DNA of 22,925 bases from a virus. The DNA is taken from positions 1 to 22,925 of IMG/VR virus record IMGVR_UViG_3300037325_000057; one strand, given 5' to 3'. The position numbers and the translations under genes were made by a program. Position 1 is the first letter of the stretch. The number at the start of each line of letters is the position of its first letter. The notes beneath the pieces were generated by a model. It ran no database searches. It saw only the letters and a list, made by a program, of their open reading frames with translations, and was not told where the DNA came from. Of the stretch, positions 3,245 to 18,786 are shown in pieces.

Positions 3245-4795
3245 CTAATAAAATTGCGGCACAACTGCCGCTGGTGCATCTTCAAATTGCATCGCTCGCT
3301 CAAGTCCCATGATGGCCGCAACAGCAAGGTCGATTTTGCGCGAAGATGATTTGTTTTCTTTATAGATGCGAGTGCCGCGTGAGTCTTGCTTCAGCACAGC
3401 GTTGGACACATGACGGTTTAGTGCAGGGTTGCCGTCATGCGTTAGTTGGCGCTCAAGCACCATCTGCGTGAATCTCTGTGTTGCCGGTGTCATGCGCGCT
3501 GCGCTTTGTGGGAACGCCACAACAGGCAAGCCTTCCGACTCCAACACTTCCAACGAGCGCGCCCAGAGGTGCGTGTCAGCCGTGACTTCAACGACGCGCC
3601 AACGCTCAGCACACGCCCTGATTCTTTCCTCAACGTCAAGGATTGGCACAGTCCAGCCAACCTCACCCGGTGGCTTTTCCCACACGCCAGCAACAGCGAT
3701 GTGCGGAAACTCCCCAACCTGTACCGCGATCAATGCGGTTGAGTCATTGCTGAAACTGCCGTCAAGGGCAAGCACAACATTGACGTGATCAGGAATCTCA
3801 CGGGCGTTGTGGCATTCAGTCCAAGCAACATCAGGCAACCATTGACCCTGGATACTTACTGGGCGGTTGAACCAATACCGCTGCCACTCAGCCGAAGATG
3901 TTTGCGGATCATCGTAGGAATCTGCGAGGGCTTCAACGTCCATCCAGTCAGCGGCTGGCCCGTAGACCTGTTTCAATCCGGCGATACGGTCGCGCCGTTT
4001 CTCAGCATCAAACTTTGGGTCAGCCTGCGCGTGATCAAAGTACAATCCAGAATCTTTAGTGCGGCCTTCCTTCACCGCCTGCGCGTAGTCAAAGGTGCCT
4101 TCAGCAACGCTGCCCTCACCGGGCGCGAACATTGTTGTTGTCTCCAGCGCCCAGCCGTGAGCAAGTTTGCGCTTAAGCAAGTTACGCAGCACAACTTGGT
4201 GCAGCCGTTTCAACTTTGGTTGAATCCACAGATGCGACTCATCAAAGACAGTGAACGTGGATTTACCACCATCAGCACTAGAATCTGCTGCTGTCTCTGG
4301 TCGAATCACGCCGCCGTTGGGCAGCAAGGTGCGAGCGTAGCCGGGATCAATGCCAGGGTACTTGTCTTGGAGTGCAGTTGATTCCTTGCACATATAAAGG
4401 ATCGTGTCGTAGGTGTTGCCGGCTTGACCGAGTTCGGTTGCAAAGCAGAGAACCTCTGGGCGTTTCACTGGCGCGCCGACAGGTTCGCCGGCCTCGTATG
4501 GATAACCCCACGCACTCACTTCACCAGCGACAGCCCAGTGATCAAAGCGAACAGGGCCGAGAGACTCAGCCATTGCAATGAAAGCAGCAAGCTCAGACTT
4601 AGCGCGACCTTTTGGGCGGCTGATAACTGAGCGTCGAATTGTTTTCTTGCCCGTTGCGTCAACCTCATACGATTTCACAATGAAGCGAGAGAACTCATCA
4701 TCAAGCAGGATTGGCTCACCTTCAATGTCGCCGGGGCCGTGAACTAAGAAAGTTTCAATAAAGGATATGACTTGGTAGCCAAGACTAAGGGCCAT
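3245..4795 (-). CDS. Terminase large subunit
   Basis: ATP-driven packaging motor and nuclease, 516 residues. An adenine-site/Walker A-like stretch SRPKGRAKS is at 59-67. Walker B with catalytic carboxylate is FTVFDESH (181-188), and the coupling motif is ALETTTM (about 216-222). The RNase H-like nuclease domain has LALDGSFSNDST (Asp345), VTADTHLW (Asp407) and RKIDLAVAA (Asp489) as likely metal ligands. AAGGAAG precedes the ATG. The start lies 52 nt inside the 3' end of the upstream HNH gene in another frame, so the HNH tail and the TerL N-terminus are double-coded. TerS is normally the direct upstream neighbour; here an HNH gene stands between them. Confidence 0.93.
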   Translation of the reverse strand: MALSLGYQVISFIETFLVHGPGDIEGEPILLDDEFSRFIVKSYEVDATGKKTIRRSVISRPKGRAKSELAAFIAMAESLGPVRFDHWAVAGEVSAWGYPYEAGEPVGAPVKRPEVLCFATELGQAGNTYDTILYMCKESTALQDKYPGIDPGYARTLLPNGGVIRPETAADSSADGGKSTFTVFDESHLWIQPKLKRLHQVVLRNLLKRKLAHGWALETTTMFAPGEGSVAEGTFDYAQAVKEGRTKDSGLYFDHAQADPKFDAEKRRDRIAGLKQVYGPAADWMDVEALADSYDDPQTSSAEWQRYWFNRPVSIQGQWLPDVAWTECHNAREIPDHVNVVLALDGSFSNDSTALIAVQVGEFPHIAVAGVWEKPPGEVGWTVPILDVEERIRACAERWRVVEVTADTHLWARSLEVLESEGLPVVAFPQSAARMTPATQRFTQMVLERQLTHDGNPALNRHVSNAVLKQDSRGTRIYKENKSSSRKIDLAVAAIMGLERAMQFEDAPAAVVPQFY

Positions 4796-5601
4796 TTGTC
4801 AGACTTCCTTAAGTTACATTTTTGACAGGCTGGCCTTAAGTTGCAAAGCATGTGAGCGCCACCTTTAGACAAGGGCTTTACATGATCAATGTTTTCTTTA
4901 GCGCCACCACACATCCAACATCCGGGGAACATGGACATCCGGTCGTTAAGTTGTTTTTGAGTAATTTTGACAACAGTTAAGTTTCTTTTTTTTGCTTGTC
5001 TTGCGCGTTCTAGCATTGTTGCAAATTGCCTGTGCTCTTTTTTGTATCTTGACGCATACGCTAAAACATAATCGCGGTTGTTGGCGCGCCACTCGCGTAT
5101 TCTTTCTGGAGGTGGTGGCCCTTTTCGCAGCCGAGATTGAGCGGATGATTCCCTTGCCCTGATAATCTTTTCAGGATTTTCTAACTTATCTTTTTGGTAT
5201 TTTTTTTGAGCTTGTATTGGGTCGTAGTATTCTCTGGCCTTTTTTGCATTACATTCTCGACAATATGAGGCCGAAACAATGTTTCCCGATCCGGCAATCC
5301 TTTCCCCAAAACGATTAAGGCTAAAAGTTGTTTGGCAAGAACGGCAAAACTTTTGGTTGCCTGCGGCCAATTTCTTTGCTGCAACATCCCGACGCTGTGC
5401 AAAGTGTTGCGCTGATCGTGAGCAATATCCACAGCCGCCACGATTGCCTCGAATGTGGCACACGGTCGGATTAACAAATCGGTTACAGGTTAGGCAAATA
5501 GACAGCAGTGGTGTGCGTGCGTCAACGTAAAGACCAACACGCTCCAGACCGACTGCGGACAATGAAAAATCAACTTCATTAACGGTCAGTTTTTTAGGCA
5601 T
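4744..5601 (-). CDS. Free-standing HNH endonuclease with N-terminal zinc fingers (homing type)
   Basis: A 285-residue protein. The N-terminus (about 25-70) has a treble-clef-like module with CLTCNRF and GGCGYC, as in other mobile HNH proteins. A second Cys pair set follows (FCRSCQTTF and YCRECNAKK), then a basic helical region (RIREWRANNRDYVLAYASRY). The C-terminal HNH fold carries CWMCGG, NIDHVKPLSKGG and CNLRPACQKCNLRKSD. The ATG at 5601 was chosen over 5634 because GGAGGAG lies 7 nt before it. The gene sits between TerS and TerL and overlaps TerL by 52 nt. It is AT-rich: 5161-5220 has 16 G/C of 60, against 37 of 60 at 181-240 in the capsid gene. Likely acquired by homing. Confidence 0.85.
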   Translation of the reverse strand: MPKKLTVNEVDFSLSAVGLERVGLYVDARTPLLSICLTCNRFVNPTVCHIRGNRGGCGYCSRSAQHFAQRRDVAAKKLAAGNQKFCRSCQTTFSLNRFGERIAGSGNIVSASYCRECNAKKAREYYDPIQAQKKYQKDKLENPEKIIRARESSAQSRLRKGPPPPERIREWRANNRDYVLAYASRYKKEHRQFATMLERARQAKKRNLTVVKITQKQLNDRMSMFPGCWMCGGAKENIDHVKPLSKGGAHMLCNLRPACQKCNLRKSDKWPLVLATKSYPLLKLS

Positions 5602-5607
5602 CTCAAG

Positions 5608-5656
5608 CTCCTCCACAAAAGGCGAAACGGCCAAGTGTTTGTGGCACTTGACCGCT
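5608..5656 (-). promoter_or_regulatory. Hairpin with loop complementary to the HNH ribosome binding region (element A)
   Basis: On the minus strand a 12-bp stem (5656-5645 with 5637-5626, two G-U pairs) closes a 7-nt loop CCACAAA (5644-5638). After a 6-nt linker (5625-5620) comes TTTGTGG (5619-5613), the exact complement of the loop, whose last two bases are the first two of the GGAGGAG ribosome binding site of the HNH gene starting at 5601. Pairing would mask that site. The arrangement matches the element before the other HNH gene (6893-6940) with unrelated sequence. Pairings are read directly; control of translation is inference. Confidence 0.6.
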
Positions 5657-5713
5657 TCTCGTTGCGGTAATTAATCGCAACTAGTCCAATGATATTGATT
5701 GTTAAAAACTTAG

Positions 5714-6139
5714 TTACTCGCTGAGCAGCTGCAAGCGTTTCCTTCGTGCAACATCCATGCTCACAGTCGTAGCGATCTCTGCTGCATCGTCAGTAATCTT
5801 GAGCTTTAGACGTAGCCGCGCCTCTGGCGTTGACCCAAAAGCGGAAACTCTGAGCCGTATTTCAGCAGCCAGATTGGTCGCACCCTCCCACATTGCCGTG
5901 TGAAGTAGCGCCGTATCAAGTAGAAAATCCCAATCTGACTCAGTAAAGCCCTGCGCCAAAGGTGATGTTCGGAAACTGTGCCACCACGCTTTCGTGCGAG
6001 GATGCCAGGTTATGTCTTTGGGCAGCGGAGATCCGCGCAGGATTCCATCTGCTGAAACTTTTGTAATGTCGGCATCACGGCGCTTGGTATCAGCCTCACG
6101 CGACAAGTTTTCTTTGGGCACTCTGCCTGGGCCAGCCAT
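5714..6139 (-). CDS. Terminase small subunit
   Basis: DNA-recognition subunit of the packaging machine, 141 residues. It starts MAGPGRVPKENLSREADTKR, a basic N-terminus common in actinophage small terminases. It continues with WHPRTKAWWHSFRTSPLAQG and FTESDWDFLLDTALLHTAMW, then a helical, charged C-terminus ending RRKRLQLLSE. The identification rests on this pattern and on lying upstream of TerL. There is no strong ribosome binding site; the ATG is 6 nt after the stop of the upstream HNH gene, so it may depend on translational coupling to that inserted gene. In the presumed ancestral order it followed the packaging HNH (7117-7425). Confidence 0.8.
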   Translation of the reverse strand: MAGPGRVPKENLSREADTKRRDADITKVSADGILRGSPLPKDITWHPRTKAWWHSFRTSPLAQGFTESDWDFLLDTALLHTAMWEGATNLAAEIRLRVSAFGSTPEARLRLKLKITDDAAEIATTVSMDVARRKRLQLLSE

Positions 6140-6145
6140 TGAGTT

Positions 6146-6886
6146 TTATCCAATCATCATAAGTTGCTCGTTGCCGCCACGGTCACTTCGTTGCGAGTTG
6201 CATAAAAAATGAGCCAATTTTAAATTTGACACATCGTGAGATCCACCGGCAGATTGCGGGACTATGTGGTCTAATGTTTTGCTGCGAGGATTCAAGTTGT
6301 TGAATTTTCCCCTTGCAACCAGCAAGCCGCAAATATGGCATTTCCATTTATCTCTAACACAAATGTAGTCAATTACTTTTACGCGTTGTTTTGCAAAAAC
6401 CCGAAAGGCCCTCTTAGTTTTCAGTTGCTTTTGATAACGCAATTTCAAGATACAACTTTTGCAAGTCTGCTTTTTTCTTGTCGGTCTAGATGTATGTAAA
6501 ATTCCACACGAAAGGCAAGGGACAAAACATATTTCAGATCGCTTATATATTAATTTTGTACATTGGTCGCTGCAAAATTTTCGGTCATTTGACTTAATAT
6601 ACGATTTTCCACAGTTGTAGCAATCAGCCCAAACTAATAATGAGCGCCATTCAGTTGATATCCCACTATCTTTTTGGGAATTTTTGAAGCAGATACGCGA
6701 ACAGAATTTTATTTTGTCCCTATTCTGCTTAAAGGCTTCCCCACAATATGCACAATCAATGAATCTTTTGTGACTCAAACCATATATTGCAACAGTCCAG
6801 CACTCACTTGAACAATACTTGTTTGCTCGCTTAATTTGACCTTTTGATAAATTTTTATTGCAGTGCATGCAAATCAGATTTTTCAT
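6146..6886 (-). CDS. HNH endonuclease with four zinc knuckles (homing type)
   Basis: A 246-residue protein. Four Cys4 modules come first: CMHCNKN/CSSEC, CAYCGEAF/FCSRIC, CYNCGKSY/FCSDQC and CLSCGIL/CKSC. A basic linker and a C-terminal HNH domain follow, with CHICGLL, LDHIVPQSAGGSHDVSNLKL and HFLCNSQRSDRGG. The knuckles probably read DNA and the HNH domain cuts it. The ATG at 6886 was chosen because TAGGTGG precedes it; the frame extends to 6922 without a better site. The gene is strongly AT-rich (6421-6480 has 20 G/C of 60), unlike the structural genes, which supports acquisition. It lies between the packaging HNH and TerS, ending 6 nt before TerS. Confidence 0.85.
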   Translation of the reverse strand: MKNLICMHCNKNLSKGQIKRANKYCSSECWTVAIYGLSHKRFIDCAYCGEAFKQNRDKIKFCSRICFKNSQKDSGISTEWRSLLVWADCYNCGKSYIKSNDRKFCSDQCTKLIYKRSEICFVPCLSCGILHTSRPTRKKQTCKSCILKLRYQKQLKTKRAFRVFAKQRVKVIDYICVRDKWKCHICGLLVARGKFNNLNPRSKTLDHIVPQSAGGSHDVSNLKLAHFLCNSQRSDRGGNEQLMMIG

Positions 6887-6892
6887 TATGCC

Positions 6893-6940
6893 ACCTATTG
6901 ATTGGCGAGGGTGCTGCACCAATAGGTGTGCAGCACCCTC
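6893..6940 (-). promoter_or_regulatory. Hairpin with loop complementary to the HNH ribosome binding site (element B)
   Basis: On the minus strand a perfect 13-bp stem (6940-6928 with 6919-6907) closes the 8-nt loop ACCTATTG (6927-6920). A 6-nt linker GCCAAT follows, then CAATAGGT (6900-6893), the exact complement of the whole loop. CAATAGGT runs into the ribosome binding site TAGGTGG of the HNH gene starting at 6886. Pairing would form a pseudoknot-like or alternative fold that hides the site. No T-run follows the stem, so it is not a plain terminator. Confidence 0.65.
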
Positions 6941-7116
6941 TAGCCCAACGGATCAAGTTGGGTTGAAATTGACTGTTTTGGAAGTTCCACGATTGCGTGG
7001 ACTTTGTTTAGCCTCAGAGCAGGGTGAACAAAAAGCACGAATGTGGATTTTTGATGTCGCCTCCGGGGTTTGCCGGGGGGTCTGACTCAAAATAAAATGA
7101 AATGAAAATGAATAAT
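6941..7116. other. Non-coding region beside the packaging HNH; candidate cos region
   Basis: 176 nt with no convincing gene. It holds hairpins CCCAAC/GTTGGG (6944-6962) and CCACG-ATTG-CGTGG (6987-7000), and a G/C-rich segment CTCCGGGGTTTGCCGGGGGG (7061-7080) next to an AT-rich purine run (7088-7125). In HNH-TerS-TerL phages the cohesive-end site often lies near these genes, and G/C-rich overhangs are usual in actinophages. The cos assignment is positional inference only. Confidence 0.3.
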
Positions 7117-7425
7117 TTATTGTTTTAATGTTTTGCTGCGAACGATGTTGCATGACCTATGTGCGGGTGCAAGGGGTGATTCGGTGCTTGCTGGAATTAC
7201 ATGGTCAGCCTGCCAAGGGTCACCGGGTCTGTACCCTTCCCCACATAACCAACAAACAACTGCGTTGTCTCGCACTTGCTTTGCTCGCTTGCGGTAATCC
7301 CCGGAGTAGTGGGGGCGCTCGCCTCTGCGAGATTCAATGATTCGATCTTGTTTGGCTTGGCAAGGTGGGCAGCGACTGCCTCTGCTGATGGCACCACAAC
7401 CAAGGCAAGCCTTATTGAATGCCAT
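7117..7425 (-). CDS. Packaging-associated HNH endonuclease
   Basis: A 102-residue compact HNH protein. CLGCGAISRGSRCPPC (about 7-22) is a Cys4 zinc site. A basic segment follows, then the HNH core CWLCGEGYRPGDPWQADHVI and HRSCNIVRSKTLKQ. This short type, without extra fingers, is the one normally found just upstream of TerS in cos phages such as HK97 (gp74), where it works with the terminase in DNA end cutting. Here TerS has been separated from it by a larger HNH gene. Base composition matches the structural genes, unlike the two AT-rich HNH genes. The ATG lies 15 nt after the previous stop; no strong ribosome binding site, so coupling is likely. Confidence 0.85.
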   Translation of the reverse strand: MAFNKACLGCGAISRGSRCPPCQAKQDRIIESRRGERPHYSGDYRKRAKQVRDNAVVCWLCGEGYRPGDPWQADHVIPASTESPLAPAHRSCNIVRSKTLKQ

Positions 7426-17665: not shown

Positions 17666-17956
17666 ATGACACAAGCAAGAACAACACTTGTCGCAACAGT
17701 AACATTTTCAACCGAGCGCGCTGGATGGACAATTGATTTCGTAGATGGAGTCAGCAGCACAACAAATGGATCATGGACTGTGCAGAAATATCTTGAAAGA
17801 TTCGCATACTTCAACACGCGATTTCTACTAACAGATGACCTAAACACCATTGACATTTATTCTAGTGCTGTGCTTCCACCATGTGCAGATTGTGCAGCAA
17901 TCAATGGAGAATTCTGTTCAGAAAATTGTGGATCACACTTCTATGATGTCGTATGA
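17666..17956 (+). CDS. Hypothetical protein with Cys-rich C-terminus
   Basis: A 96-residue product starting MTQARTTLVATVTFSTERAG. The ATG at 17666 was chosen because AAAGGGAGA lies 7 nt before it. The N-terminal two thirds are mixed beta (WTIDFVDGVSSTTNGSWTVQ). The end has PPCADCAAINGEFCSENCGS, two CxxC-type pairs that probably form a zinc site. The stop overlaps the start of the C5-methyltransferase gene (ATGA), so both are made together; a helper role for the methylase is possible but unsupported. Confidence 0.65.
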   Translation: MTQARTTLVATVTFSTERAGWTIDFVDGVSSTTNGSWTVQKYLERFAYFNTRFLLTDDLNTIDIYSSAVLPPCADCAAINGEFCSENCGSHFYDVV

Positions 17957-18786
17957 AAGTTGGATCTTTCTTCACTGGTTATGGTGGACTTGATATTGCT
18001 GTTGGTGGGGAACTGCAATGGTACGCAGAGATCGAACCAGCAGCATGTCAAGTGCTTGCAGCGCATTATCCAGATGTTCCCAACCTTGGCGACATGACCA
18101 AGATTGATTGGACATCTGTTCCACCAGTAGACATTCTCACTGGCGGTTATCCATGCCAACCATTCTCACACGCAGGAAACCGAAAGGGAAAAGATGATGA
18201 ACGACACTTGTGGCCTTACGTTAGGTCTGCCATTGATGCGCTTCGACCAAGATACGCAATCCTGGAGAACGTCGCCGGACACCTCACTCTGGGACTTGCC
18301 GATGTCCTCTCCGACCTTGCCAGCATCGGGTACGATGCGGAGTGGGGTACTTACAAGGCGAGCGATGTTGGAGCGCCCCACGGACGGAAACGACTTTTCA
18401 TTGTTGCCCACCCCAACAGTAGTAGACATGGGAAACAACAAGACGCAACAGGAATGGAAAACGTGGACGGACGCTATGCGTTTGAAACACAAGAACGGGA
18501 ACGGTCATGGGCCGTCACTGACACAGGAAGCACTTGGGGCAAGTACGAACCTGCAATCCGACGCTGGGAAGCACTCACACGCGAAGTCCCAGAGCCAACT
18601 GTCCCGCACAAAGACAAGCGCAGACTCAACCCGGCTTTTGTTGAATGGATGATGGGCTTGCCCGCGGGACATGTCACCGGGCATGGACTCAGCGCAGCGA
18701 AAGAACTCAAGATGCTGGGCAATGGCGTAGTCCCACAACAGGCACGTTCAGCAGTGACTCAACTCATGGAAAGGATTACACAATGA
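17953..18786 (+). CDS. C5-cytosine DNA methyltransferase, orphan
   Basis: A 277-residue enzyme that puts a methyl on C5 of cytosine in DNA. Motif I is FFTGYGGLD (6-14), and motif IV with catalytic Cys68 is GGYPCQPFS (64-72). ENV (105-107) is motif VI and GAPHGRKRLFIVA (140-152) motif VIII. NPAFVEWMMGLPAG and KMLGNGVVPQQA form the C-terminal target/AdoMet side. All key residues are present. No restriction enzyme is near, so it likely shields phage DNA. It is coupled to genes on both sides by ATGA overlaps. The target sequence is unknown. From 18197 to 18652 a second frame is open within it. Confidence 0.93.
   Translation: MKVGSFFTGYGGLDIAVGGELQWYAEIEPAACQVLAAHYPDVPNLGDMTKIDWTSVPPVDILTGGYPCQPFSHAGNRKGKDDERHLWPYVRSAIDALRPRYAILENVAGHLTLGLADVLSDLASIGYDAEWGTYKASDVGAPHGRKRLFIVAHPNSSRHGKQQDATGMENVDGRYAFETQERERSWAVTDTGSTWGKYEPAIRRWEALTREVPEPTVPHKDKRRLNPAFVEWMMGLPAGHVTGHGLSAAKELKMLGNGVVPQQARSAVTQLMERITQ
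18197..18652 (+). CDS. Overlapping +1-frame ORF inside the methyltransferase gene ('SWRTS/LLPTPT' protein)
   Basis: A 151-residue frame starting MNDTCGLTLGLPLMRFDQDT. It includes QSWRTSPDTSLWDL, SSPTLPASGTMRSGVL, ERPTDGNDFSLLPTPTVVD and HKNGNGHGPSLTQEALG. These blocks read like a recurrent family of phage hypothetical proteins with 'SWRTS', 'SGxMRxG' and 'LPTPT' motifs (from memory). AAAGGGA (18183-18189) lies 7 nt before the ATG (another ATG at 18194), the same signal used by many genes here. The methyltransferase frame is intact throughout, so this would be true dual coding. Alternatively it is a shadow: motif VIII GAPHGRKR read +1 gives the ERPTDGND block. Confidence 0.4.
   Translation: MNDTCGLTLGLPLMRFDQDTQSWRTSPDTSLWDLPMSSPTLPASGTMRSGVLTRRAMLERPTDGNDFSLLPTPTVVDMGNNKTQQEWKTWTDAMRLKHKNGNGHGPSLTQEALGASTNLQSDAGKHSHAKSQSQLSRTKTSADSTRLLLNG

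Follow-up and report, generated by a model that had tools for sequence, protein, structure and literature searches.

A putative two-hairpin RNA element with a loop complementary to the ribosome binding site recurs ahead of HNH genes in actinobacterial viruses and prophages

Sequence comparison identifies a hairpin in a 22,925-nucleotide viral DNA (IMG/VR record IMGVR_UViG_3300037325_000057; herein the window, meaning the whole stretch analyzed) as one copy of a previously unrecorded, putative RNA element that stands ahead of HNH genes in actinobacterial viruses and prophages. This fragment of a tailed phage carries terminase and portal genes, all on the minus strand, and two copies of the element, A and B, ahead of two HNH genes. 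Carriers elsewhere comprise metagenomic phages, actinobacterial prophages and the cultured Arthrobacter phages Persistence and Phrank15; the sequences are unrelated. We judge that the element is probably the cis-acting leader of a mobile HNH cassette, its loop pairing with the Shine-Dalgarno (SD) sequence and restraining translation of a homing endonuclease.

Two copies of the element in the window

Element B lies on the minus strand directly before HNH gene B. Read directly, its hairpin P2 (6907 to 6940) consists of the arm GAGGGTGCTGCAC (6940-6928), the loop ACCTATTG (6927-6920) and the arm GTGCAGCACCCTC (6919-6907), which form a 13-bp stem. The linker GCCAAT (6906-6901) follows, giving "CGC" with the last stem base, and then CAATAGGT (6900-6893), the exact complement of the loop, which runs into the SD AGGTGG and is separated by GGCATA from the ATG at 6886-6884. 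A preliminary sequence-only reading had described this stem, loop, 6-nt linker and 8-nt complement, and every letter of that description holds. Its account of the hairpin's extent was right for P2 and the complement but incomplete: lining up 13 members revealed a further hairpin, P1 (6944 to 6962), with a counterpart in all 18 members tabulated. The full order of element B is CCCAAC[TTGATCC]GTTGGG (P1), CTA, GAGGGTGCTGCAC[ACCTATTG]GTGCAGCACCCTC (P2), GCCAAT, CAATAGGT, GGCATA and ATG 6886, and our covariance model R1 matches it at 6884-6962 on the minus strand with 53.9 bits.

The octamer of element B occurs at only two places within the window, the loop and its complement, and the RNA fold z-score is -3.17. 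A simple calculation gives an 8-nt match within about 35 nt a probability of about 5e-4 per hairpin; a single match of this kind is notable, yet alone it is not decisive after scanning. The match is settled as nonrandom because the same architecture recurs with other sequences. One close homologue of element B was compared, that of L003, whose HNH B is 93% identical. It retains the hairpin and the complement, with one compensatory change in the outer stem, two P2 mismatches and an identical loop-SD pair; farther upstream of the hairpin, identity falls to about 50%. Exact-sequence searches for the element B hairpin returned nothing beyond L003 (hits L147 and L148 are unrelated by inspection). 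A start at TTG 6922, inside the hairpin, was considered and rejected: the frame is open in L003 too, but codon differences there change amino acids, and ATG 6886 is therefore preferred.

Element A (5681-5599, minus strand) precedes the other of these HNH genes. Its P1, GTTGCG[ATTAATTAC]CGCAAC (5661 to 5681), emerges from the member alignment and model R1; its P2 (5624 to 5658), found by scanning, has a 14-bp stem including two G-U pairs and the loop CCACAAA (5644-5638). TTTGTGG (5613 to 5619), also found by scanning, is the exact complement of that loop and runs into AGGAG. Model R1 matches 5601-5681 on the minus strand with 48.4 bits. We take the "element A" of the sequence-only reading to be this second, true copy; that reading had missed P1, the wider family and the proximity to the predicted cos end.

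Recurrence and covariation across the family

Outside the window, the element was found ahead of a distant HNH relative (L157), where it reads GGAAGCCCCGAG[TCTCCCGG]CTCGGGGCTTCC, GCACT, CCGGGAGA, AATT and ATG; a scan of the collected DNA after L157 turned up L158, L159 and the window's own element A. HNH-family profile searches of actinobacterial genomes yielded five prophage copies (L264, L266, L267, L270 and L287) and a copy ahead of a terL gene (L274). A search not aimed at HNH genes gave 58 matches to the loop/complement pattern in 84,980 species genomes, with a stem in L181 and L219 only; the L219 element precedes an HNH gene, and the ORF downstream of the L181 element is, judged by eye, possibly a decayed HNH gene. 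In 788 actinobacterial genomes, the same pattern had stems at HNH genes or L181 only. The scan demanding near-perfect Watson-Crick stems missed L181 and L219, which were recovered once G-U pairs were allowed.

Built from 13 members, model R1 added three copies ahead of HNH genes (L332 to L334), one whose HNH gene is truncated (L271), one in L152 that is cut at the 5' end, and two ahead of other small genes (L337 and L338). It also matches Persistence (46.7 bits; P2 GGAAGGCCCAGCA[TCCATAG]TGCTGGGCCTTCC, GCATTC, CTATGGA) and Phrank15 (41.7 bits); in both, the element lies close to the right genome end and is directly followed by an HNH gene. For the Persistence HNH gene (L351, 1056-1772), the annotation begins only at 1557, but the open frame and the element indicate a start at 1056, as in Phrank15 gp101. 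When R1 was run on 140 genomes, five of the six best matches preceded HNH genes (four intact and one truncated) and the sixth a terL; among the eight clearest, HNH genes again account for five (four intact and one truncated) and other genes for three. The three members ahead of non-HNH genes (terL in L274, a 102-aa ORF in L337 and a 153-aa cysteine-rich ORF in L338) are possibly remnants of lost cassettes or signs of wider use. The tie between the element and HNH genes thus is strong but not exclusive, and the association is inflated because many members were retrieved through HNH proteins. No copy was seen upstream of the HNH genes of phages Gaia, Footloose, Mildred21, PMP-GADVASU-IND, Baka, prophiGD57-2, Verity, BrutonGaster, prophiGD20-1, ClubL, NV1.1.1, Aminay, Easley and GAL1.

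The family has a regular anatomy. P1 comprises 6 to 7 bp and carries the loop YUGAUC in most members, with AGCU-type variants in L157, L266 and L332 and AAUU-type variants in element A and Persistence; every loop variant contains a 4-nt palindrome (a GATC core, AGCT or AATT). A spacer of 2 to 4 nt leads to P2, which has 11 to 14 bp, a base that is often GAAAG/CTTTC and a loop of 7 to 11 nt. "CGC" spans the junction of P2 and linker in all 13 aligned rows, and L332 departs with CGT. The linker (3 to 7 nt) usually begins with GC; the SD-bearing complement then follows, with the start codon 4 to 11 nt on. Hairpins similar to P2 that lack the loop-SD match also occur, in L339 to L341 and at the extreme left genome end of Streptomyces phage Xkcd426 (L308, 8-72), where the hairpin has a GCAT linker and is not ahead of an HNH gene.

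Covariation across the 18 members strongly supports both stems, the loop-SD pairing and hence the predicted structure of the element. In P1 and P2 together, 323 of 333 cells form standard pairs, with up to six pair types per position, and at least 11 different loops match their own downstream SD over 6 to 10 nt, continuously in every member but L271. Of the 14 matches that a strict scan returned in 3.56 million strand-bases, 12 are true elements; the other two (L281 and L316) look spurious, being G- or C-rich with the SD uncovered. In a second-order Markov control (5.3 Mb), the single match lacked a start codon. When complements were permuted among seven distinct loops, 2 of 20,000 shuffles reached the observed loop-SD total, a figure equal to the expectation from identity permutations alone. 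Recurrence and the Markov control rule out a chance origin of the loop-SD match, in line with the earlier claim that the loop complement was very unlikely to be accidental.

This covariation rests on the wider family, not on close homologues of element B. Relatives change both loop and ribosome binding site (RBS) while keeping them complementary, which upholds the RNA pairing proposed in the sequence-only reading; homologues in which the two diverge, set beforehand as the grounds for abandoning it, were not found, save for L271 (1237-1315). There both hairpins are intact, most of the loop-SD match is lost and the HNH ORF is cut to 75 aa; possibly the pairing decayed once the gene was broken. 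In L338, the match is down to 6 bp.

HNH genes, terminase genes and the predicted cos end

All the genes at issue lie on the minus strand. HNH gene B (6146 to 6886; 246 aa) has zinc-finger motifs and a C-terminal HNH domain (PF01844, 35.9 bits; cut-off 21.4) and lies between the predicted cos end and the small terminase gene (5714 to 6139; PF25673, 108 bits), which is directly downstream. HNH gene A (4744 to 5601, with its ATG at 5601; PF01844, 34.1 bits; cut-off 21.4) sits between the small and the large terminase genes and overlaps the start of the latter (3245 to 4795). Upstream of element B, a small HNH gene (7117 to 7425; 102 aa) adjoins cos; related phages widely conserve it. One phage thus has three different HNH genes interleaved with its terminase genes (4744-7425). 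With HNH A running into the start of terL and HNH B ending 6 nt ahead of the terS ATG, terminase translation may be coupled to endonuclease translation. Elsewhere in the window, an ORF on the plus strand (17953-18786) resembles a DNA cytosine methyltransferase by eye (MKVGSFFTGYGGLDIAVGGE...).

The cos end is predicted from the contig ends of relatives. Among 80 IMG/VR contigs with a relative of the small HNH gene, 26 end 21 to 102 nt past that gene, most of them at a matching position, and other contigs read through the point; such a pattern is the expected signature of a cos end. The record of Pontimonas phage phiPsal1 is also split there, ending in ...CCCTAC and starting with CCGCC. Comparison with L010 places the window's predicted cut at 7024/7023, between TTCAC and CCTGCTC on the minus strand, which puts the start of element B about 60 nt inside the left genome end. 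L003 begins about 11 nt after the predicted cut, which suggests an 11-nt 3' overhang, CCTGCTCTGAG.

Presence and absence among relatives set the HNH genes apart. The close relatives L004, L005 and L007 lack both HNH gene B and its hairpin, and L003 lacks both HNH gene A and element A, so that its terS runs straight into terL. In the window's lineage, the element therefore comes and goes with its HNH gene, as would be expected of a mobile cassette, and this behavior as a unit supports the earlier suggestion of a selfish endonuclease. Genes A and B carry the HNH nuclease domain and are intergenic insertions present in some close relatives and absent from others; on these sequence grounds they are likely free-standing homing endonucleases, with presumed homing activity. 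HNH genes beside terminase genes may be packaging factors or homing endonucleases (PMC10448857). HNH B resembles HK97-type packaging HNH genes in adjoining cos and terminase, but it is optional, being missing in TerS relatives, whereas the small HNH gene (7425-7117) is kept and fits the conserved partner better. The optional genes A and B thus look like homing endonucleases, and the conserved small HNH gene looks like a packaging factor. A PDB sequence search with HNH B gave no informative relative.

Proposed regulation and related systems

In the reading we favor, each window copy would act as a cis-acting RNA leader belonging to a mobile HNH endonuclease cassette. On transcription, P2 would fold first and its loop would then pair with the SD as the SD emerges. 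The product would be an H-type pseudoknot; where the geometry leaves too little room, the base of P2, often rich in A-U pairs, would open and the pseudoknot would be partial. To reach the SD, the 30S subunit would have to compete with 6 to 10 base pairs, so that little endonuclease would be made unless some trigger opens the pairing. That the regulation is repressive is suggested by the coverage of the SD. The loop-SD duplex has a computed energy of -7 to -20 kcal/mol. Pairing of that region with a typical 16S tail comes to about -6 to -16, and in most members the loop-SD duplex is comparable or stronger. By eye, no promoter of the T4 kind is obvious inside the hairpin.

The steric concern raised in the sequence-only reading was justified. 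In an A-form estimate, spanning a 12-14-bp stem takes about 6.6 to 7.3 backbone links and the linkers offer 4 to 8, and a zero-length L1 is too short to span 8 bp of the second helix; full P2 and full 8-bp loop-SD pairing are therefore only marginally compatible. Opening the base of P2, or leaving one or two loop pairs open, would resolve the clash in this model, which makes partial pairing or a switch likely; a strained fold of both helices would suit the latter. Masking alone leaves the conserved P1 loop and junction unexplained. A regulated switch would be compatible with masking and extend it: the pairing would be opened or stabilized by the HNH protein, by some protein of the phage or host, by a small ligand or by dimerization of transcripts through the P1 loop. 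The P1 loop is conserved despite a varying stem, each variant being palindromic, and neither this conservation nor the CGC of the 13 aligned rows is required by masking alone. The element has no known ligand or protein partner, however, and with so few variants the palindromes could be coincidental; we regard such a switch as rather doubtful. Slightly less so, and tentatively, the element may represent a new phage regulatory RNA class that couples a variable "cis anti-SD" loop to P1 as a sensor hairpin with a palindromic purine-purine-pyrimidine-pyrimidine loop core, P1 answering transcript dimerization, a ligand or the endonuclease itself. If so, mobile endonucleases would carry a self-contained expression governor that travels with them.

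The pairing might instead activate translation, the pseudoknot recruiting or positioning the ribosome as in repZ of IncI-alpha plasmids, whose translation requires the loop pairing, and the regular geometry (stem 11 to 14 bp, linker mostly 4 to 7 nt) does suggest a defined fold over simple masking. The activating pseudoknot of repZ/repA leaders differs from the element in that it pairs upstream of the SD, has longer spacing, is regulated by antisense RNA and serves a plasmid replication gene. In the element, the SD itself (CCGGGAGA, CTAGAGGA, CAATAGGT) is the paired strand and the pairing is strong, so we think activation unlikely, though likelier than the two readings that follow. Like the element, the leaders of IncI-alpha and IncL/M plasmids do have a hairpin loop that pairs beside the RBS and forms a pseudoknot; for an activating pseudoknot, PMC10724649 cites Asano and Mizobuchi 1998.

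It is very improbable that the element is a DNA site, such as a small-terminase binding site (cosB) or a protein operator near cos, that looks like RNA structure by chance. Cos sites hold terminase binding sites, that of HK97 lying 15-29 bp downstream of the cut (PMC11331095), and element B is close to a cos position that is itself supported; yet relatives of the cos region without the HNH gene are also without the element, element A lies between terS and terL, the L274 copy precedes terL and the Arthrobacter copies are near the right end, and loop and SD covary without sequence conservation, unlike a protein site. An ordinary terminator-like hairpin between phage genes has as little to commend it as a complete explanation. 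P2 often resembles GAAAGGCCC...GGGCCTTTC, and the similar hairpins of Xkcd426 and L339-L341 do without the match, but complementarity of 6-10 nt in all but one member, with at least 11 loops, cannot be incidental, and no U-tract follows the window hairpins. Termination could be a second function of P2; the covariation of loop and SD disfavors it as the whole account.

RNA control of homing endonucleases is documented mainly in T4-like phages. There, the RBS lies within a hairpin and late promoters yield transcripts unable to form it (PMC2988022). In the leaders of I-TevI, I-TevII, I-TevIII, segB and mobE, as probably in the element, RNA structure where a phage homing endonuclease gene begins blocks access to the RBS, and loop-SD covariation indicates that the upstream structure here engages the RBS as well. 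The earlier comparison with T4 hairpins is fair in the sense of working alike; it fails in that the RBS lies 3' of the hairpin and is reached by the loop, and in the additional conserved hairpin. The nearest precedent is seg43(25) of Aeromonas phage 25, where a very stable hairpin of unknown effect lies immediately upstream of, and does not contain, the RBS of a free-standing homing endonuclease gene (PMC2988022). That is a single case with a segD-like endonuclease, and that review describes no loop-RBS complementarity for it.

SAS/ESAS repeats of Cluster K mycobacteriophages and Cluster EF Microbacterium phages also lie at actinophage start codons and have an inverted repeat or a conserved sequence ahead of the SD (PMC3203893; PMC7302621). 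Unlike the element, they are conserved in sequence (GGGATAGGAGCCC), occur in many copies per genome and have arms without RNA covariation (PMC3203893; PMC7302621); the window's RBS regions read CAATAGGTGGC and TTTGTGGAGGAGC in place of the 13-bp motif GGGATAGGAGCCC (or GGGAAAGGACCCC), and its stems vary while pairing is preserved. Rfam 15 contains no covariance model that matches element A or B at the gathering threshold (permissive searches gave sub-threshold noise only), and the literature searched, subscription papers aside, does not describe the element, which appears to be an unregistered RNA family. The actinophage element would be a separate, recurring solution to the RNA control of endonucleases, testable in Persistence and Phrank15; it could reveal by what means a mobile endonuclease whose gene sits beside essential packaging genes limits its own dose, and model R1 gives a means of locating such HNH cassettes.

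A different recurrent leader, without an Rfam match, was observed upstream of actinophage HNH genes. It consists of a G+C-rich hairpin with a GGTAACA-type loop, TGGCCGA and a small SD-containing hairpin (for example, CCCCCGCACCTGCTGGTAACAGGCCGGGGGCATGGCCGACTAGTTAGGAGTCGAC-GTG), and occurs in L161 (about 1850-1911), L236 (about 1850-1910), L171 (about 1270-1330), L162 (about 1680-1745), L145 (about 630-692) and L155 (about 1550-1632).
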